In this document: positions 24,213 through 62,905 of the stretch, one piece after another
How positions within the stretch are numbered: the stretch's first letter is position 1
Layout of the letters: the number at the start of each line of letters is the position of its first letter
Assembly: GCF_017052585.1 (NCBI RefSeq)
Contig: NZ_JAFFHZ010000001.1
Location: 1,302,001-1,366,000, forward strand
DNA from: Paenibacillus apiarius
GTDB lineage: Bacteria; Bacillota; Bacilli; Paenibacillales; Paenibacillaceae
DNA length: 64,000 nt
Direction of reading: 5' to 3'
Translations under genes and position numbers: made by a program
Notes under the pieces: model-generated
What the model was told of the DNA's origin: nothing
Seen by the model: the letters and a program-made list of their open reading frames with translations, nothing else
The model's database searches: none

Positions 24213-24524
24213 AGAAAATCCCCCTTCACGTTATCCATTAACGAGAATTTGCTCCATACTCTCATCTATGTGCGATTACACTTGTTTTCATTGTTTTTCA
24301 CGATTTTCAACCTTAGTTTACCATCCTTATTTCGTTTCCGCCACCATTCCCCTTTTTTCTTCCGCTCCAAACCCTTCTTACGTCCGTTCCCCTCTAAATT
24401 ATGCACGAAAGAAAGGCTTATCGCACTTTTCCACTTTTTTTAGTACACTTAAGGAGATTGTTTGATTGGGGAAAGCTTCAATTCATCATTTACGTTAACT
24501 TGTCCAAAACGGAGGAGATATAAA
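24213..24524. other. 312-bp divergent intergenic region
   Basis: The gap lies between the folate gene (leftwards) and the ABC-F gene (rightwards). It is pyrimidine-rich on the plus strand. I see no convincing promoter, hairpin or small gene beyond the two ribosome binding sites at its ends. Confidence 0.5.
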
Positions 24525-26498
24525 GTGCTGCTTCAAGTGAACGGCATGAGCAAAAATTACGGGATTACCCCCGTATTGACGAACATTACAATGCAAATTC
24601 TTGAACGGGAGCGGATCGGCTTGGTAGGCGTCAACGGTGCCGGCAAGTCTACGCTCCTTCAATTGATAGCAGGCGAATTGACGCCAGACGGCGGCACCAT
24701 TTTCAAGTCCAAAGAAACGCGCATCGGTTATCTTGCGCAAAATAGCGGCCTGCAATCCGAGCGTTCCATCTGGGACGAGATGATGCACGTCTTCGAGCAT
24801 CTAATGGAAGCGGAGCAAGAGCTGAGAGACTTGGAGCATCAGATTGCAGATCCGAAGCTGGCCGAAGACGAAGCTAAATATGAAGACATACTGCACCGTT
24901 ATGCGGAGCGTTCGGAATGGTTCCGCCAGCAAGGCGGCTACGAGATGGAGACGCGCGTCCGCAGCGTTCTGCATGGGATGGGCTTCGCACAGATGGATCC
25001 AAAAACTCCGATTCATACGTTAAGCGGAGGCCAGAAGACGAGACTCGCGCTGGCGCGCATTTTGCTGCAGCAGCCGGACCTTCTCCTGCTCGATGAACCG
25101 ACGAACCACCTTGACATTCATACGCTTACTTGGCTTGAGTCATATTTGCGTTCTTATCCCGGCGCGGTTCTGGTCGTATCACATGACCGTTATTTCCTTG
25201 ATGCCATGGTAACGACCATTATTGAAATCGAGCGTCACCAAGCCAAAAGATACACCGGTAATTACACGAAGTACATGGAATTGAAGGCAGCCGAATATGA
25301 GCAGCAGTTAAAGCTGTATGAGAAGCAGCAGGATGAGATCGCGCGGATGGAGGATTTCGTGCAACGGAACCTTGTCCGGGCATCGACGACCAAGCGCGCC
25401 CAAAGCCGCCGCAAAGCGCTAGACCGTATGGAACGAATCGACAAACCGCTCGGCGATTTGAAAAAGGCGAATTTCAGCTTCGAAATTACCCGCCAAAGCG
25501 GCAAAGATGTGCTTTACGTTCAGGATGCGGCTGTCGGCTATGATAACCACCCGCCTCTCTTTGAACACGCAAGCTTCGAATTGAAGCGTGGAGAAATGGT
25601 CGCCTTAATCGGACCGAACGGAATCGGCAAATCAACACTGCTAAAGACGCTGATTGGAAAGCACCCGCTGCAAGCGGGGCAGTTCCATTGGGGCACGAAC
25701 GTCTCGATCGGTTACTATGATCAGGAGCAGACTACGCTCAATAACAGCAATACCGTGCTGGAGGAAGTATGGAGCGCTTATCCCCACCTTGAAGAAGTGC
25801 GGATTCGCACCGTTCTTGGCAGCTTCCTGTTCAGCGGAGAAGACGTGCTGAAGAAAATCGGATCCTTGAGCGGGGGAGAAAAAGCCCGGGTCGCGTTGGC
25901 AAAACTAATGCTTGAGCAAGCCAATATGCTCATACTGGATGAGCCGACGAACCATTTGGACTTATTCAGCAAAGAAGTATTGGAATCCGCACTCATGGAT
26001 TATGAAGGAACCGTGCTGTTCATTTCACATGACCGCTACTTTTTGAACAAAATGGCAGAGCGCATCGTCGAGTTGAGTCCAACCGGAACCTGTCATTTCC
26101 TGGGAAATTATGACGATTATCAAGCTAAAAAACAGGAGCTGGCTGAAGACGAGGCGATACGCGCCTCCTTGCAGCCGACCGGCGGCACGAGCAAGCCCTC
26201 GACGTTTCAAGGCGGAAAAACGGCTGATGATTCAGACGATTCGAAGAGCGGAGCCGCGGCATTCGAAGCGGACAAGCTGGCCAAACGCGAAGAACGGGCG
26301 CGTCAGCGGAAGCTGGAGCAATTGGAGAAGCAGATTGCAGAGCTTGAAGCGGAAATTGCGGAACGTGAATTGGAACTAGCCGAGCCTGAAGTATACAACG
26401 ACTATGTGCGTGTTCAATCGATACAAGAGCAGCTGGACGCGGACAAAACGGCGCTTAACGCCGTGTATGCGCAATGGGAGCAATTGATGGAAGAGTAG
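24525..26498 (+). CDS. ABC-F ATPase, YdiF-like
   Basis: GTG 24525 follows GGAGGAGA; upstream in-frame codons lack a site. The 657-residue protein has two ABC domains without membrane segments. The first has GVNGAGKS, LSGGQKTRLALARILL and LLLLDEPTNHLD; the second has GPNGIGKS, LSGGEKARVALAKLML and LILDEPTNHLD. They are joined by the basic P-site tRNA-interaction linker (VQRNLVRASTTKRAQSRRKA). A charged C-terminal coiled coil follows (about 560-657). ABC-F proteins act on the ribosome. In Bacillus ydiF occupies the same position beside tsaD and moaC, supporting orthology and a housekeeping translation role rather than drug resistance. Confidence 0.92.
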   Translation: MLLQVNGMSKNYGITPVLTNITMQILERERIGLVGVNGAGKSTLLQLIAGELTPDGGTIFKSKETRIGYLAQNSGLQSERSIWDEMMHVFEHLMEAEQELRDLEHQIADPKLAEDEAKYEDILHRYAERSEWFRQQGGYEMETRVRSVLHGMGFAQMDPKTPIHTLSGGQKTRLALARILLQQPDLLLLDEPTNHLDIHTLTWLESYLRSYPGAVLVVSHDRYFLDAMVTTIIEIERHQAKRYTGNYTKYMELKAAEYEQQLKLYEKQQDEIARMEDFVQRNLVRASTTKRAQSRRKALDRMERIDKPLGDLKKANFSFEITRQSGKDVLYVQDAAVGYDNHPPLFEHASFELKRGEMVALIGPNGIGKSTLLKTLIGKHPLQAGQFHWGTNVSIGYYDQEQTTLNNSNTVLEEVWSAYPHLEEVRIRTVLGSFLFSGEDVLKKIGSLSGGEKARVALAKLMLEQANMLILDEPTNHLDLFSKEVLESALMDYEGTVLFISHDRYFLNKMAERIVELSPTGTCHFLGNYDDYQAKKQELAEDEAIRASLQPTGGTSKPSTFQGGKTADDSDDSKSGAAAFEADKLAKREERARQRKLEQLEKQIAELEAEIAERELELAEPEVYNDYVRVQSIQEQLDADKTALNAVYAQWEQLMEE

Positions 26499-27195: not shown

Positions 27196-28236
27196 TTAAC
27201 AAAATGACATCGTTATCTTCCCTCTCCCGGCAAGCGAGGATACCTCCGCCAACGCTCCATTGACCAAAGTCAATTGCGGGGGAACATGGCCAATGTCGGC
27301 GTCATAGATGACTGGAATCTGTATATCATCGAAGATGTGGCGCAGCGCATCCTGAAGTTCGAAATTTTGGGTTGGCGCATAACCATTCGGTCTCCCAAAA
27401 AGAAACCCGTTCGCATGTTCAAACCACCCGCATTGCTTCATCTGCCATAAATGCCTGTATATATCGGCCGCATTCATTTCGCTGCTTTCCATGTACCATA
27501 TGATCCCGTCCTGTTTGCAATACTTGTGGGAGAACTCATTGATAGGCGCAAAAGGCGTCCCGACAAGGATAGATAAAGTATCCAGACAACCGCCCAGCAG
27601 TCTCCCTGTAAAATGAAGCCCGCTATCAGAATCCTCTTCCTGGCCGAGCGTCTTCCACCTTGTAGGGGTATCCAATTGATACCCGGGAGTGGAAAAGTCC
27701 CAGAAAGACTGAAAGAAAGCCGAGGAGGTCTGAACAACGGTTTGGTTATGTTCTGTGCTCAAAACGTCCTCCCAACGGGCAGTAGTTTCATCCCAATTGC
27801 CGGAACCGAGCTCGATATAATTCACTCCATGCGCTGTAGCGCATCCTGTTCGCAACGTATAGGCGAAGTTGAATGTGCTGATATCCGAGTATCCCAGAAT
27901 CCATTTAGGCTGCTGATTTTTCAATGAATCCCAATCCAAGAGAGGCAATATTTCGATAAGGAATTCGCCGCCCCAAGGCGGAATAACAGCGTTCACTCTT
28001 TCATCTGACAGAAAGTCTTGAAGTTCGCGCGCCCTTTGCTCCTTGCCAGAACTAACGCATTTATCATTCGTCCAAATCGTCTTTCCTTCCATCACCTCGT
28101 ACCCCGAATCCTCGAACTCGATTTTTGACCGTGTCAGTAAATGGTGCAAGTGCTCTTCAACCCCGCTGGAAGGGGCGGTAATGGCAATGCAATCTCCTTT
28201 TCTTAGCGGTGCGGGATATTTGATTGTATCGCGCAA
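27196..28236 (-). CDS. Peptidase S66 (LD-carboxypeptidase / MccF-like)
   Basis: The 346-residue protein starts at TTG 28236, 8 nt after AGGAGG. It has S66 motifs: IAITAPSSGV near the start, the nucleophile Ser in ILGYSDIS (about residue 115), GRLLGGCLDTLSILVGTPF and the terminal His in DIGHVPPQLTLVNGA. The MccF branch cleaves acyl-sulfamoyl antibiotics of the microcin C type; the LdcA branch trims muropeptide tetrapeptides. The length (346, longer than about 300 for LdcA) favours the MccF-like branch. It stands alone with no obvious partner gene. Confidence 0.88.
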   Translation of the reverse strand: MRDTIKYPAPLRKGDCIAITAPSSGVEEHLHHLLTRSKIEFEDSGYEVMEGKTIWTNDKCVSSGKEQRARELQDFLSDERVNAVIPPWGGEFLIEILPLLDWDSLKNQQPKWILGYSDISTFNFAYTLRTGCATAHGVNYIELGSGNWDETTARWEDVLSTEHNQTVVQTSSAFFQSFWDFSTPGYQLDTPTRWKTLGQEEDSDSGLHFTGRLLGGCLDTLSILVGTPFAPINEFSHKYCKQDGIIWYMESSEMNAADIYRHLWQMKQCGWFEHANGFLFGRPNGYAPTQNFELQDALRHIFDDIQIPVIYDADIGHVPPQLTLVNGALAEVSSLAGRGKITMSFC

Positions 28237-28325
28237 AGATTTCTCCTCCTTTCATGAAACATGGCGCGGATGCTGATTTTCATGCTTGCTTCTCACGAGA
28301 AATCTGTGCTCATGAAAGTCACAGG

Positions 28326-28573
28326 TTATGCACAAAATCAATCCATGCAAATGAGAACATATTTGCAACCCAACTTCGTTTTTTTATTGGTGCACCAGTA
28401 TTATTTTTTTGTAAACCAACATTATCCACTGATTTATCCACATTATCCACAGAAAAGATGCTTTTGTATGCAAAACCTATCCCCTTTTTCATAGAAAATA
28501 GACCGTAAGTCCCGAAAGGCTGTAAGCGTTATATCCACATTTTCAACAGGATATGTGGATAACTTTGTCCACA
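28326..28573. promoter_or_regulatory. DnaA-box cluster in the intergenic region beside leuA
   Basis: The 342-bp gap 28237-28578 holds no gene but seven DnaA-box-like 9-mers: TTATGCACA (28326), TTATCCACT (28422), TTATCCACA (28434), TTATCCACA (28443), TATATCCACA (ends 28539), TGTGGATAA on the other strand (28554-28562) and TTGTCCACA (28565). Three match TTATCCACA exactly and the first matches TTATNCACA. The surrounding sequence is AT-rich. In B. subtilis, DnaA-box clusters outside oriC titrate DnaA, and one lies near tsaD (gcp), the same neighbourhood. The cluster ends 5 bp from the leuA stop. Confidence 0.75.
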
Positions 28574-28578
28574 TATGA

Positions 28579-30192
28579 TTAGGATATCTCTTTGGACTGT
28601 GCAGGAACAGCTGCCTGAACGGCTTCAGCGCCGTTATCGCCGTCATTCTCTTGAGCGCGCAGCGCTTGATTGCATGCCGCGATATAGGCTTGCGCAGCAG
28701 CCAGCACAATATCTTGATTCATGGCGCTTCCTTGGTACGTATGATTGTATAGCGACACGGTAACAACGGCCTCGCCCGACGCTGCTTCTCCGGAAGACAG
28801 GGAATGCAGCTCCAAGTCTTCAAATTGGACCGGCGCCTGCACAGATTGCGCGATTGCCCGGATAACCGCTTCTATCGGACCGCCCCCGACTCCCGCGTAA
28901 GTCGCTTCCTGTCCAGTCGCTTGATTCTTGACCGTAACGGAAGCGACGCTAGCGCGAGAACTGCCCGCGATCACCTGCACATCGAGCAATTGAATGGGCT
29001 CCAGCTGCTGATGCAGCGTCTCCCCGATGCATTGCAGCAACTGATCGTCCGTGACGACCTTTTGCTTATCCGCTATTTCCTTAAAGCGATCGTAGACCTC
29101 ATCCAACTGAACCGTGTCCAACTGCACTCCGTATTGAGCGGCACGATGCTTCAGCGCATGTCTGCCTGAATGCTTGCCAAAAATAATCATATGATGCGGG
29201 ATGCCCAGCTTAACCGGGTCCATAATTTCATAGGTGCTGCGATGCTTGAGCAATCCGTCTTGATGAATGCCTGATTCATGCTGGAAAGCGTTGCGACCGA
29301 CGATCGGCTTGTTGAAGGCAATCGGAAAATGCATCATGCGGCTGACCATGCGCGACGTCTCGTACAAGTGCTCGGGCCGGATGTTCGTGTCAGCCTGCAA
29401 AGCCTCGCCCCTCGTGTCAAGTGCCATAATGAGCTCCTCCAACGCGCAATTCCCCGTGCGTTCTCCGACTCCATTCACGGTCACTTCAATCTGCGTGGCG
29501 CCAGCCTGGATCGCGGCAAGACTATTCGCCACCGCCAAGCCGAGATCGTTATGACAATGGGCGCTGAAGGCTACGTGCTCCGCTCCGCGCGCTCCTTGAC
29601 GCACCTTCCGGAACAATGCGCCGTATTCTTCAGGCAATGCATATCCGACCGTGTCGGGTAGATTGATGATGGTCGCCCCTTCTTCGATGGCCGCTTCCAC
29701 CAGTTCGATGATGAAGTCCACATCCGCGCGCGTCGCATCCATGGCCGTGAATTCGATCGGATCGACGAATTGCTTCGCATAAGCGACCGTCTCCCGCGCC
29801 ATCTGCTTGACCTCGGCCCGCGATTTGCGCAGCTGGTGCTTCAAGTGTATATCCGAAGCCGAGACAAAGACATGAATGCGGCGTAAAGCGGCGTCTTCAG
29901 TTGCGCGCACTGCCGCATCGATATCACCGCGAACCGCCCGCGCGAAGCCGCAAATTTCCACCTCCGGCAGCATGCGCGAGATGCGCTGCACCGCTTCGAA
30001 CTCGCCTGGACTGGACACCGGGAAACCCGGCTCCATCACATCTACTCCAAGCTGCGCCAATCGAGATGCCAGCGCCAGCTTCTGTTCAAGCCTCAAAGCG
30101 GCACCGGGCGCTTGCTCTCCATCGCGCAGCGTCGTATCGAAAATGTGGATTCTGTTTCCGTTCATGCTATGAAAGCGGCGTTCGTTATTCAT
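28579..30192 (-). CDS. leuA: 2-isopropylmalate synthase
   Basis: ATG 30192 (MNNERRFHSM) is placed 9 nt after GGAGG; an ATG 9 bp further upstream abuts that site. The 537-residue protein has the DRE-TIM catalytic domain (IFDTTLRDGEQAPGAALRLE, VAFSAHCHNDLGLAVANSLA with the metal-binding HxH, VNGVGERTGNCALEELIMAL) and the C-terminal leucine-sensing LeuA dimer domain (about 380-520). It condenses 2-oxoisovalerate with acetyl-CoA, the first step to leucine. No ilv or leuBCD genes follow. Expression is controlled by two tandem leucine T-boxes. Confidence 0.95.
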   Translation of the reverse strand: MNNERRFHSMNGNRIHIFDTTLRDGEQAPGAALRLEQKLALASRLAQLGVDVMEPGFPVSSPGEFEAVQRISRMLPEVEICGFARAVRGDIDAAVRATEDAALRRIHVFVSASDIHLKHQLRKSRAEVKQMARETVAYAKQFVDPIEFTAMDATRADVDFIIELVEAAIEEGATIINLPDTVGYALPEEYGALFRKVRQGARGAEHVAFSAHCHNDLGLAVANSLAAIQAGATQIEVTVNGVGERTGNCALEELIMALDTRGEALQADTNIRPEHLYETSRMVSRMMHFPIAFNKPIVGRNAFQHESGIHQDGLLKHRSTYEIMDPVKLGIPHHMIIFGKHSGRHALKHRAAQYGVQLDTVQLDEVYDRFKEIADKQKVVTDDQLLQCIGETLHQQLEPIQLLDVQVIAGSSRASVASVTVKNQATGQEATYAGVGGGPIEAVIRAIAQSVQAPVQFEDLELHSLSSGEAASGEAVVTVSLYNHTYQGSAMNQDIVLAAAQAYIAACNQALRAQENDGDNGAEAVQAAVPAQSKEIS

Positions 30193-30227
30193 TGATTTCA
30201 TCCTCCGTATCTTTTAAGTTATGGAAC

Positions 30228-30505
30228 AAAAAAACCTGTCGTCTCCATGTTAGAGACGACAGGTTCTGCCGCGGTACCACTCCAATTGAGGCATGGGGAA
30301 CGTATTGTTGCCATGCTTCCGCTTGAGCCTTGTAACGGGAGGGACCGTAGCGGCCTAGCACTTCGCTGCCTACCGATTTCAATCGGCTAGGCAGCAATGC
30401 ATTTCAGCTGCTCCACTTCGAGGCGAGTTCAGACCGTTCCGCCGCTGCGTCGCACCAACCCGCAGCTCTCTGCTCAAGGCATCCACCGTCTTACTGCTCC
30501 TGTTC
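30228..30505 (-). ncRNA. T-box leader 1 (leucine), next to leuA
   Basis: On the minus strand the leader has AGGAGCAGTAAG, the Stem I parts AGAGAGCTGCGGGTTGGTGC, the specifier region TGAACTCGCC with CTC (Leu) at 30425-30427, and the T-box AGTGGTACCGCGG at 30269-30281. It ends in a terminator (ACCTGTCGTCTC stem plus seven T). The T in GTGGTACC fits pairing with A73 of tRNA-Leu. Uncharged tRNA-Leu should favour the antiterminator and allow leuA transcription. Confidence 0.92.
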
Positions 30506-30563
30506 ATCGTGTTATCTTATTCTTATCTATACGCAGGTTGCTCCAAATGTTGTCTTTAAAAAT

Positions 30564-30855
30564 AAAAAAACCTGTCGTCTCGATTAGAGACGACAGGTGT
30601 TCTGCCGTGGTACCACTCTACTTGATGGGCCTTCATCCTCGCGAAAGATGAAGCAGCCATCCGCTTCATGCGCACAACGCCGGGCCTATATCCGGACATT
30701 CGCCGTTATGCGCGCCCGATGACGGGGGCTCCGTAATGGCGTACTGCATAGTCGATTCCGCCATTCCGCTCACAGGCGAGTTCAGGCCGACTGCCGCTGT
30801 GTCGCACCAACCCACAGCTCTCTGAGACAAGTCTAAACCTTACTGCTCCTGATCT
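30564..30855 (-). ncRNA. T-box leader 2 (leucine), upstream copy
   Basis: A second complete T-box precedes the first by about 60 bp. It shows AGGAGCAGTAAG, AGAGAGCTGTGGGTTGGTGC, the same TGAACTCGCC specifier with CTC at 30778-30780, AGTGGTACCACGG and its own terminator (ACCTGTCGTCTC stem, seven T at 30564-30570). The middle region (30640-30740) differs from copy 1 in length and sequence, so the duplication is not recent. Confidence 0.92.
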
Positions 30856-30905
30856 TAGCGTTTAACCGATATTCCCATTCCATGGAAGGATTAGGTTTGT
30901 TGAAT

Positions 30906-30964: not shown

Positions 30965-32014
30965 TTAGTTTCCGACGGACCAGCCTTCAAGAGAGAACAG
31001 CGGGCCTGCTTGGAAGTCAAGCGGAGTGAATTGTCCGCTCTTCCATTTCAAATAGGCGGCAGCGCCAATCATCGCCGCATTATCGGTGCAATATTCGAAC
31101 GGCGGCACCAGCAGCGGCACGCCTTCCGCCTTGCAGCGCTCGCCTAGAGCCGCGCGAAGACCGCGATTAGCCGCCACGCCGCCGCAAAGCAATAGCTGCT
31201 TCGCGTGGTACTCCTTCACGGCGCGCATCGCTTTGCCCGTAAGCACGTCGATTACCGATTCCTGAAATCCGCGGGCGACTGCAGCATACACCGGCGGCTC
31301 ACCGCGCATTTTCGCTTGATTGATCACATTCAGAACCGCTGACTTCAAGCCGCTGAAGCTGAAATCATAGGAATCCGGCTCAAGCCAAGCGCGCGGCAGC
31401 TCGATTACTTCCTCTGCCTCCCCGGCCAAGCGATCGATATGCGGGCCTCCAGGATAAGGAAATCCGACGGCTCGCGCCACTTTATCGTAAGCCTCGCCCA
31501 CAGCGTCATCTCTAGTCTTCCCAATAACGCGAAATTGACCCTCGCTCTCCAAATGGACAAGCTCCGTATGTCCGCCGGACACGACAAGCGCCATGCACGG
31601 GTATTCCATTTGTTCCGTAAGCTGATTGGCATAAATATGTCCTGCGATATGGTGCGTGCCGATAAGCGGGATATCCAATGCCATGGCAAGCCCCTTCGCC
31701 GCGACAATGCCAACGAGCAGCGAGCCTACAAGACCGGGACCTTGCGTCACCGCAATCGCGTCCACATCGGACAACGCGATGCCAGCTTCGGCAACCGCTT
31801 GTTCCAGCATGACCGTAATCGTCTCCACATGCTTGCGCGAGGCGATCTCCGGCACGACGCCGCCAAAACGGCGGTGAACGTCGATTTGACTCGATACCAT
31901 ATTGGACAGCACTTCGCGTCCGTTGCGCACGATGGCGACCGACGTCTCGTCACAGCTCGTTTCCACGGCTAAAATAGTGCATGATTTCGATGGTTCAGAA
32001 CTACAATTTATCAA
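30965..32014 (-). CDS. tsaD: tRNA N6-adenosine threonylcarbamoyltransferase TsaD
   Basis: TTG 32014 is preferred because AGGTG lies 6 nt upstream; a GTG 9 bp earlier in frame lacks room for a site. The protein (about 349 residues) has the ASKHA kinase-like fold: LAVETSCDETSVAIV, the metal-binding HHIAGHIYANQL, VVSGGHTEL, YPGGPHID and the final CTDNAAMIGAAAYLKW. It transfers the threonylcarbamoyl group to A37 of ANN-decoding tRNAs, working with TsaB and TsaE, which are encoded just upstream in the same operon. Confidence 0.95.
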   Translation of the reverse strand: MINCSSEPSKSCTILAVETSCDETSVAIVRNGREVLSNMVSSQIDVHRRFGGVVPEIASRKHVETITVMLEQAVAEAGIALSDVDAIAVTQGPGLVGSLLVGIVAAKGLAMALDIPLIGTHHIAGHIYANQLTEQMEYPCMALVVSGGHTELVHLESEGQFRVIGKTRDDAVGEAYDKVARAVGFPYPGGPHIDRLAGEAEEVIELPRAWLEPDSYDFSFSGLKSAVLNVINQAKMRGEPPVYAAVARGFQESVIDVLTGKAMRAVKEYHAKQLLLCGGVAANRGLRAALGERCKAEGVPLLVPPFEYCTDNAAMIGAAAYLKWKSGQFTPLDFQAGPLFSLEGWSVGN

Positions 32015-32028
32015 TGAATTCACCTGCT

Positions 32029-62764: not shown

Positions 62765-62905
62765 AAACTGGGGCATTTAACCCCTCCTCACGCCACACCC
62801 TCGACGATGAACGTCTAAGGCCCACGCTTGCCCACAGCATGGCCGAGTGCCTACAATGATAAAGGTATAGTAGGCATTACCTTATGATAGTCCGGCTAAT
62901 GGACT
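62765..62905 (-). ncRNA. Candidate structured leader RNA between kinase and flippase genes
   Basis: On the minus strand this 270-bp gap (62650-62926) has at least four short stems: AGTCC/GGACT (62889-62905), TGCCTAC/GTAGGCA (62848-62876), GACG/CGTC (62803-62815) and GGGG/CCCC with loop TTAAATG (62770-62784). Its place after a BY-kinase gene in an exopolysaccharide operon matches the EAR element of the B. subtilis eps operon, which sits between epsB and epsC and gives processive antitermination. I cannot match the EAR consensus by eye. Confidence 0.35.

Follow-up and report, generated by a model that had tools for sequence, protein, structure and literature searches.

Several clusters of DnaA boxes are known to act on chromosome replication from outside oriC. 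In Bacillus subtilis, removal of all six non-oriC clusters results in early initiation, which a single relocated cluster partially cures. The gcp/ydiF cluster of this bacterium (region 4 in Table 1 of Smith and Grossman 2015) is among the eight regions most strongly bound by DnaA in vitro; it contains 10 sites, shows an apparent Kd of 0.15 uM with ATP-DnaA, and at 55 nM 16-fold more of its DNA is recovered by ATP-DnaA than by ADP-DnaA (PMC4447404). Neither gcp nor ydiF is listed among the direct regulatory targets of DnaA in B. subtilis (PMC8203912), so this cluster is probably not a promoter switch there. In Escherichia coli the datA locus, also an oriC-proximal, non-coding DnaA-box cluster outside oriC, restrains initiation; it requires IHF and drives hydrolysis of the ATP on DnaA, an activity that the Bacillus clusters are not known to have. 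According to the literature, B. subtilis has neither IHF nor datA nor DARS. E. coli DnaA additionally prefers boxes that are 2-3 bp apart (PMC11317965).

A DnaA-box array between leuA and a peptidase gene

The window analysed here comprises 64,000 nucleotides of Paenibacillus apiarius (contig 1 bases 1302001-1366000 of a 6.58-Mb genome). An earlier note on it had described seven DnaA-box-like 9-mers in about 250 bp, three of them exact and two of these back to back, in non-coding, AT-rich DNA beside leuA. All of this holds: each of the seven boxes lies where it had been placed, within 28326-28573 (248 bp), and exact copies of TTATCCACA begin at 28434, 28443 (abutting the former) and 28554. The components of the array, named after the modules A, E, B and C that recur in relatives, are the following:

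28326..28573, no strand assigned: whole DnaA-box cluster, defined by box matches, shuffles and conservation (128 of 134 distinct intervals between tsaD and ydiF)
28326..28334, plus strand: box C1 of module C, TTATGCACA, 108 bp from B2
28422..28430, plus strand: box B3 of module B, TTATCCACT, 3 bp from B2
28434..28442, plus strand: box B2 of module B, TTATCCACA, directly abutting B1
28443..28451, plus strand: box B1 of module B, TTATCCACA, 111 bp from A+; identity 0.94
28469..28491, minus strand: element E, TGAAAAAGGGGATAGGTTTTGCA, with conserved inverted arms flanking a weak box-like core; identity 0.57
28531..28539, plus strand: third box of module A, ATATCCACA, a box match
28554..28562, minus strand: box A+ of module A, TTATCCACA, nearly invariant (mean pairwise identity 0.94, against 0.38 for spacers)
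28565..28573, plus strand: box A0 of module A, TTGTCCACA, inverted relative to A+ and 2 bp away

A further box, C2, which lies 12 bp beyond C1 in many relatives, is degenerate in this array. The genes around the array are:

24462..26498, plus strand: ydiF-type ABC-F ATPase gene, identified by ortholog matches; one flank of the conserved interval, convergent with tsaD
27196..28236, minus strand: S66 LD-carboxypeptidase family gene, with the array 90-337 bp upstream of its start
28579..30201, minus strand: leuA (2-isopropylmalate synthase), with 5 bp between its 3' end and the array
30965..32023, minus strand: tsaD (gcp), the other flank of the conserved interval

The intergenic gap that holds the array (28237-28578, 342 bp) is 63% AT, against 49% for the window, and is downstream of leuA yet upstream of the S66 peptidase gene, a detail that the earlier note had not given. 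The array accounts for 7 of the 20 matches in the window with at most one mismatch and for all three exact ones. The box score of the gap is 11, compared to a maximum of 5 in 2000 dinucleotide-preserving shuffles. Genome-wide pattern searches recovered a perfect same-strand pair of boxes within 30 bp only at the array and at oriC, and the tandem TTATNCACATTATNCACA (at most one mismatch) at the array alone.

An Rfam search of the gap matched no RNA element, and no terminator was found between leuA and the array. Nested inverted repeats with 13-nt arms (92%) occur at 28233-28318, in the start region and leader of the S66 peptidase gene near its likely ribosome-binding site, and could form a leader hairpin. 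Elsewhere in the window, leuA is preceded by two tandem T-box leaders (30249-30516 and 30583-30865, minus strand), both well above the Rfam threshold, and an epsC RNA element (Rfam RF01735), usually linked to exopolysaccharide operons, is present at 62770-62882 on the minus strand.

The array has the sequence and positional features of a Bacillus non-oriC cluster of the gcp/ydiF type, with several boxes in a short intergenic stretch, convergent tsaD and ydiF, and an origin-proximal position. It shares with the B. subtilis cluster the tsaD (gcp)-ydiF interval, many boxes matching TTATNCACA, and its share of the genome as distance from oriC (0.149 there, 0.155 here). Unlike the B. subtilis gap, which lies between two 3' ends, that of the window does not and is flanked by leuA and the S66 peptidase gene; furthermore, there are 10 sites in B. 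subtilis against 7 predicted boxes here. The 2-bp and 3-bp separations of A0/A+ and B2/B3 resemble the double boxes of E. coli; in contrast to these, B1 and B2 abut without a gap, and the pairs are joined into a single array at whole-turn distances.

Conservation of the array in the tsaD-ydiF interval

The earlier note had also pointed to the B. subtilis cluster near tsaD, seen the same neighbourhood here with leuA and a peptidase gene inserted, and suggested a DnaA site that kept its place, to be checked for conserved boxes in relatives. That B. subtilis cluster is the gcp/ydiF region described above, and tsaD and ydiF are convergent in both organisms. We collected tsaD neighbourhoods from 80 named genomes, nearly all of Paenibacillaceae, added those of 79 others sampled across the family, order and class, and scored boxes in 300-bp windows, with a score of at least 7 defining a cluster. 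Among the loci of class Bacilli with both genes in the retrieved DNA, 130 of 136 (128 of 134 distinct ones) contain such a cluster inside the tsaD-ydiF interval, and none has one outside it. In 71 loci, no score above 4 occurs within 10 kb upstream of tsaD, while scores of at least 8 are reached in 67 within 10 kb downstream. A conserved DnaA site that has held its place is thus well supported. The array is dispensable in some lineages, because in six distinct loci with tsaD and ydiF retrieved (L100, L112, L125, L139, L149 and L156) no cluster was found. Two further candidate exceptions, G037 (box score 12) and G050 (6, weaker), were rejected, as their boxes lie beside or towards ydiF past a longer insertion, 15-19 kb from tsaD.

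The genes next to the array are far less constant. A leuA gene is part of the interval at 52 of 85 Paenibacillaceae loci, compared to 1 of the 51 others, and lies on the tsaD side of the cluster in some Paenibacillus. The S66 peptidase gene is found on the ydiF side only in the window and in its nearest relative, P. profundus (L031), whose tsaD is the closest to that of the window (90%). In many Paenibacillus the order is tsaD-cluster-ydiF with no genes between, and the suggestion that genes were inserted next to a site that did not move is essentially correct. As leuA and the peptidase gene come and go while the cluster stays, the site predates its present neighbours. Over 51 non-redundant clusters the boxes show mean pairwise identities of 0.53-0.94, against 0.38 for the spacers.

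The distance of the array to dnaA is 1017 kb on the same contig, or 0.155 of the genome, the chromosome length being approximate in this 3-contig assembly. We considered a constant relative distance from oriC, with values of 0.150-0.166 in the genus and 0.149 in B. subtilis, but do not claim it, since the class spans 0.05-0.35; the position relative to oriC is not tightly fixed over the class.

Other box-rich regions were encountered in the same genomes. A second non-oriC DnaA-box cluster (G000:C1:2454000-2454240; L193 1939-2240; L026) is found upstream of a tadA-like gene, some 104 kb away from dnaA, and has box-rich counterparts about 100-107 kb from dnaA in G001 (L191) and G004 (L192); it matches none of the six B. 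subtilis clusters in the literature compared. In the 5 kb before oriC (G000:C1:2344000-2349300, L171), the place of the B. subtilis jag-trmE cluster, no box cluster was found, and that cluster seems not to be kept at this position in the genome of the window. Another member of the genus carries a second, broken dnaA-like stretch (G012:C1:4066149-4066935).

Fixed module order and whole-turn spacing

With tsaD set as the plus strand, the order of the boxes in Paenibacillaceae is fixed as A0(-), A+(+), A(-), E, B1-B2-B3, C1 and often C2, with steps of 9 and 12 bp within B1-B2-B3. A homology-aware assignment of 84 clusters places B1 102-104 bp from A+ in 16 loci and 111-114 bp in 68, and C1 at 96-98, 105-109, 116-118, 124-127 or 136 bp from B2, with one weak outlier at 121 bp. 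When these distances are followed on the tsaD tree, they change by 1-2 bp, or by 8-11 and 18 bp; only two changes, of 3 and 5 bp, depart from this, and both fall in a single lineage of weak assignment that includes a Cohnella. Spacing between modules therefore changes almost exclusively by whole helical turns, in steps of about 10 bp. Element E, with the consensus TGAAAA-NN-GGGATA-NN-TTTTTCA, is a poor DnaA box; it could consist of two weak boxes, or else serve another protein as a binding site. Where recognisable, its distance from A+ is 70-74 or 81-82 bp and that from B1 mostly 29-32 or 39-42 bp; it shifts by about 10 bp yet keeps its phase to A and B in most of the 51 non-redundant clusters.

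The same regularity extends beyond the order. In 35 clusters of other orders, same-strand distances between boxes (one-mismatch sites included, as in all phasing counts) peak at 9, 12, 21-22, 31, 42-43, 52-54, 63-64, 73 and 86 bp, and the 42-43 bp distance was observed 42 times against 10 expected. A per-family test, with one cluster from each of 28 families (449 pairs), gave an R of 0.455 at 10.8 bp, compared to a maximum of 0.255 in 1000 randomisations that left the tandem modules intact; this test is not fully independent, because related families may share inherited distances, and the whole-turn changes inside Paenibacillaceae are the more independent evidence. Simple Rayleigh p-values were set aside, as one inherited modal spacing suffices to shrink them, and the phasing rests on the count of changes on the tsaD tree together with the per-family randomisation. 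By itself, the array of the window has a modest periodicity (R 0.34, 13 pairs).

This geometry bears on how the array might handle DnaA. It could be a plain sink, in which the number and strength of the boxes alone count and no ordered complex is formed; we regard this as unlikely, since a sink needs neither the fixed module order nor the whole-turn spacing that are observed.

A proposed scaffold for DnaA

Rather less probable still is that the boxes serve chiefly to switch the S66 peptidase gene, in the manner of the DnaA-controlled promoters of ywlC, ywcI and sda in B. subtilis. The array does lie upstream of this gene, and two weak promoter-like matches (9 of 12) overlap the module B boxes, but such matches are near chance (2 found against 0.9 expected). 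Moreover, the array is class-wide, whereas only the window and its nearest relative have the peptidase gene in the interval; many relatives have the 3' end of a gene on either side of the array. The conserved downstream gene that marks a DnaA-regulated promoter is thus wanting, and its box-overlapped promoter is represented by these near-chance matches only. A second or relic replication origin would fit the abundance of DnaA boxes in non-coding DNA of high AT content, but is very improbable: an oriC of normal appearance surrounds dnaA (G000:C1:2349400-2351470), and the array, rather than adjoining dnaA/dnaN, is 1.02 Mb from dnaA, which has clusters of its own, and is apart from dnaA in every complete genome measured. 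A chance cluster of AT-rich 9-mers, for all the AT content of the gap, is refuted by the shuffles and by recurrence in the same interval in 28 families.

Based on these observations we propose that in Paenibacillus this array is probably orthologous to the gcp/ydiF cluster of B. subtilis and serves as a phased scaffold for cooperative binding of DnaA that delays initiation. DnaA, mainly in its ATP form, would bind cooperatively to module A, to the tandem boxes of B and to module C; as the bound molecules would be on a single face of the helix, those in A, B and C could meet and give a defined nucleoprotein complex. Early replication of the array would provide extra copies of the site, and the complexes formed there would keep DnaA off oriC, with the next initiation being delayed once the site has doubled. 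The boxes, their position, their conservation, the fixed modules and the whole-turn phasing are observed; binding of DnaA to the array in P. apiarius and its oligomerisation across the modules are predicted, and the presumed restraint on initiation is modelled on an effect seen only with the six B. subtilis clusters taken as a set. Somewhat doubtfully, the scaffold might do more over the whole class: with element E as an extra part, it could build a defined oligomer that acts on the state or assembly of DnaA beyond mass titration, as a functional counterpart of datA that works without IHF.

The class-wide hold of the array on its place and its whole-turn geometry are apparently undescribed, though its conservation may have been noted in part already (Okumura 2012, Ishikawa 2007). 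The array probably acts as a brake on chromosome replication, one that is old and organised, and not as a loose sponge. A B. subtilis cluster without a known target gene thereby becomes an old fixture of the class Bacilli, which stays while the neighbouring genes change, and the whole-turn spacing makes it simple to test whether such clusters act as sponges or as ordered complexes.
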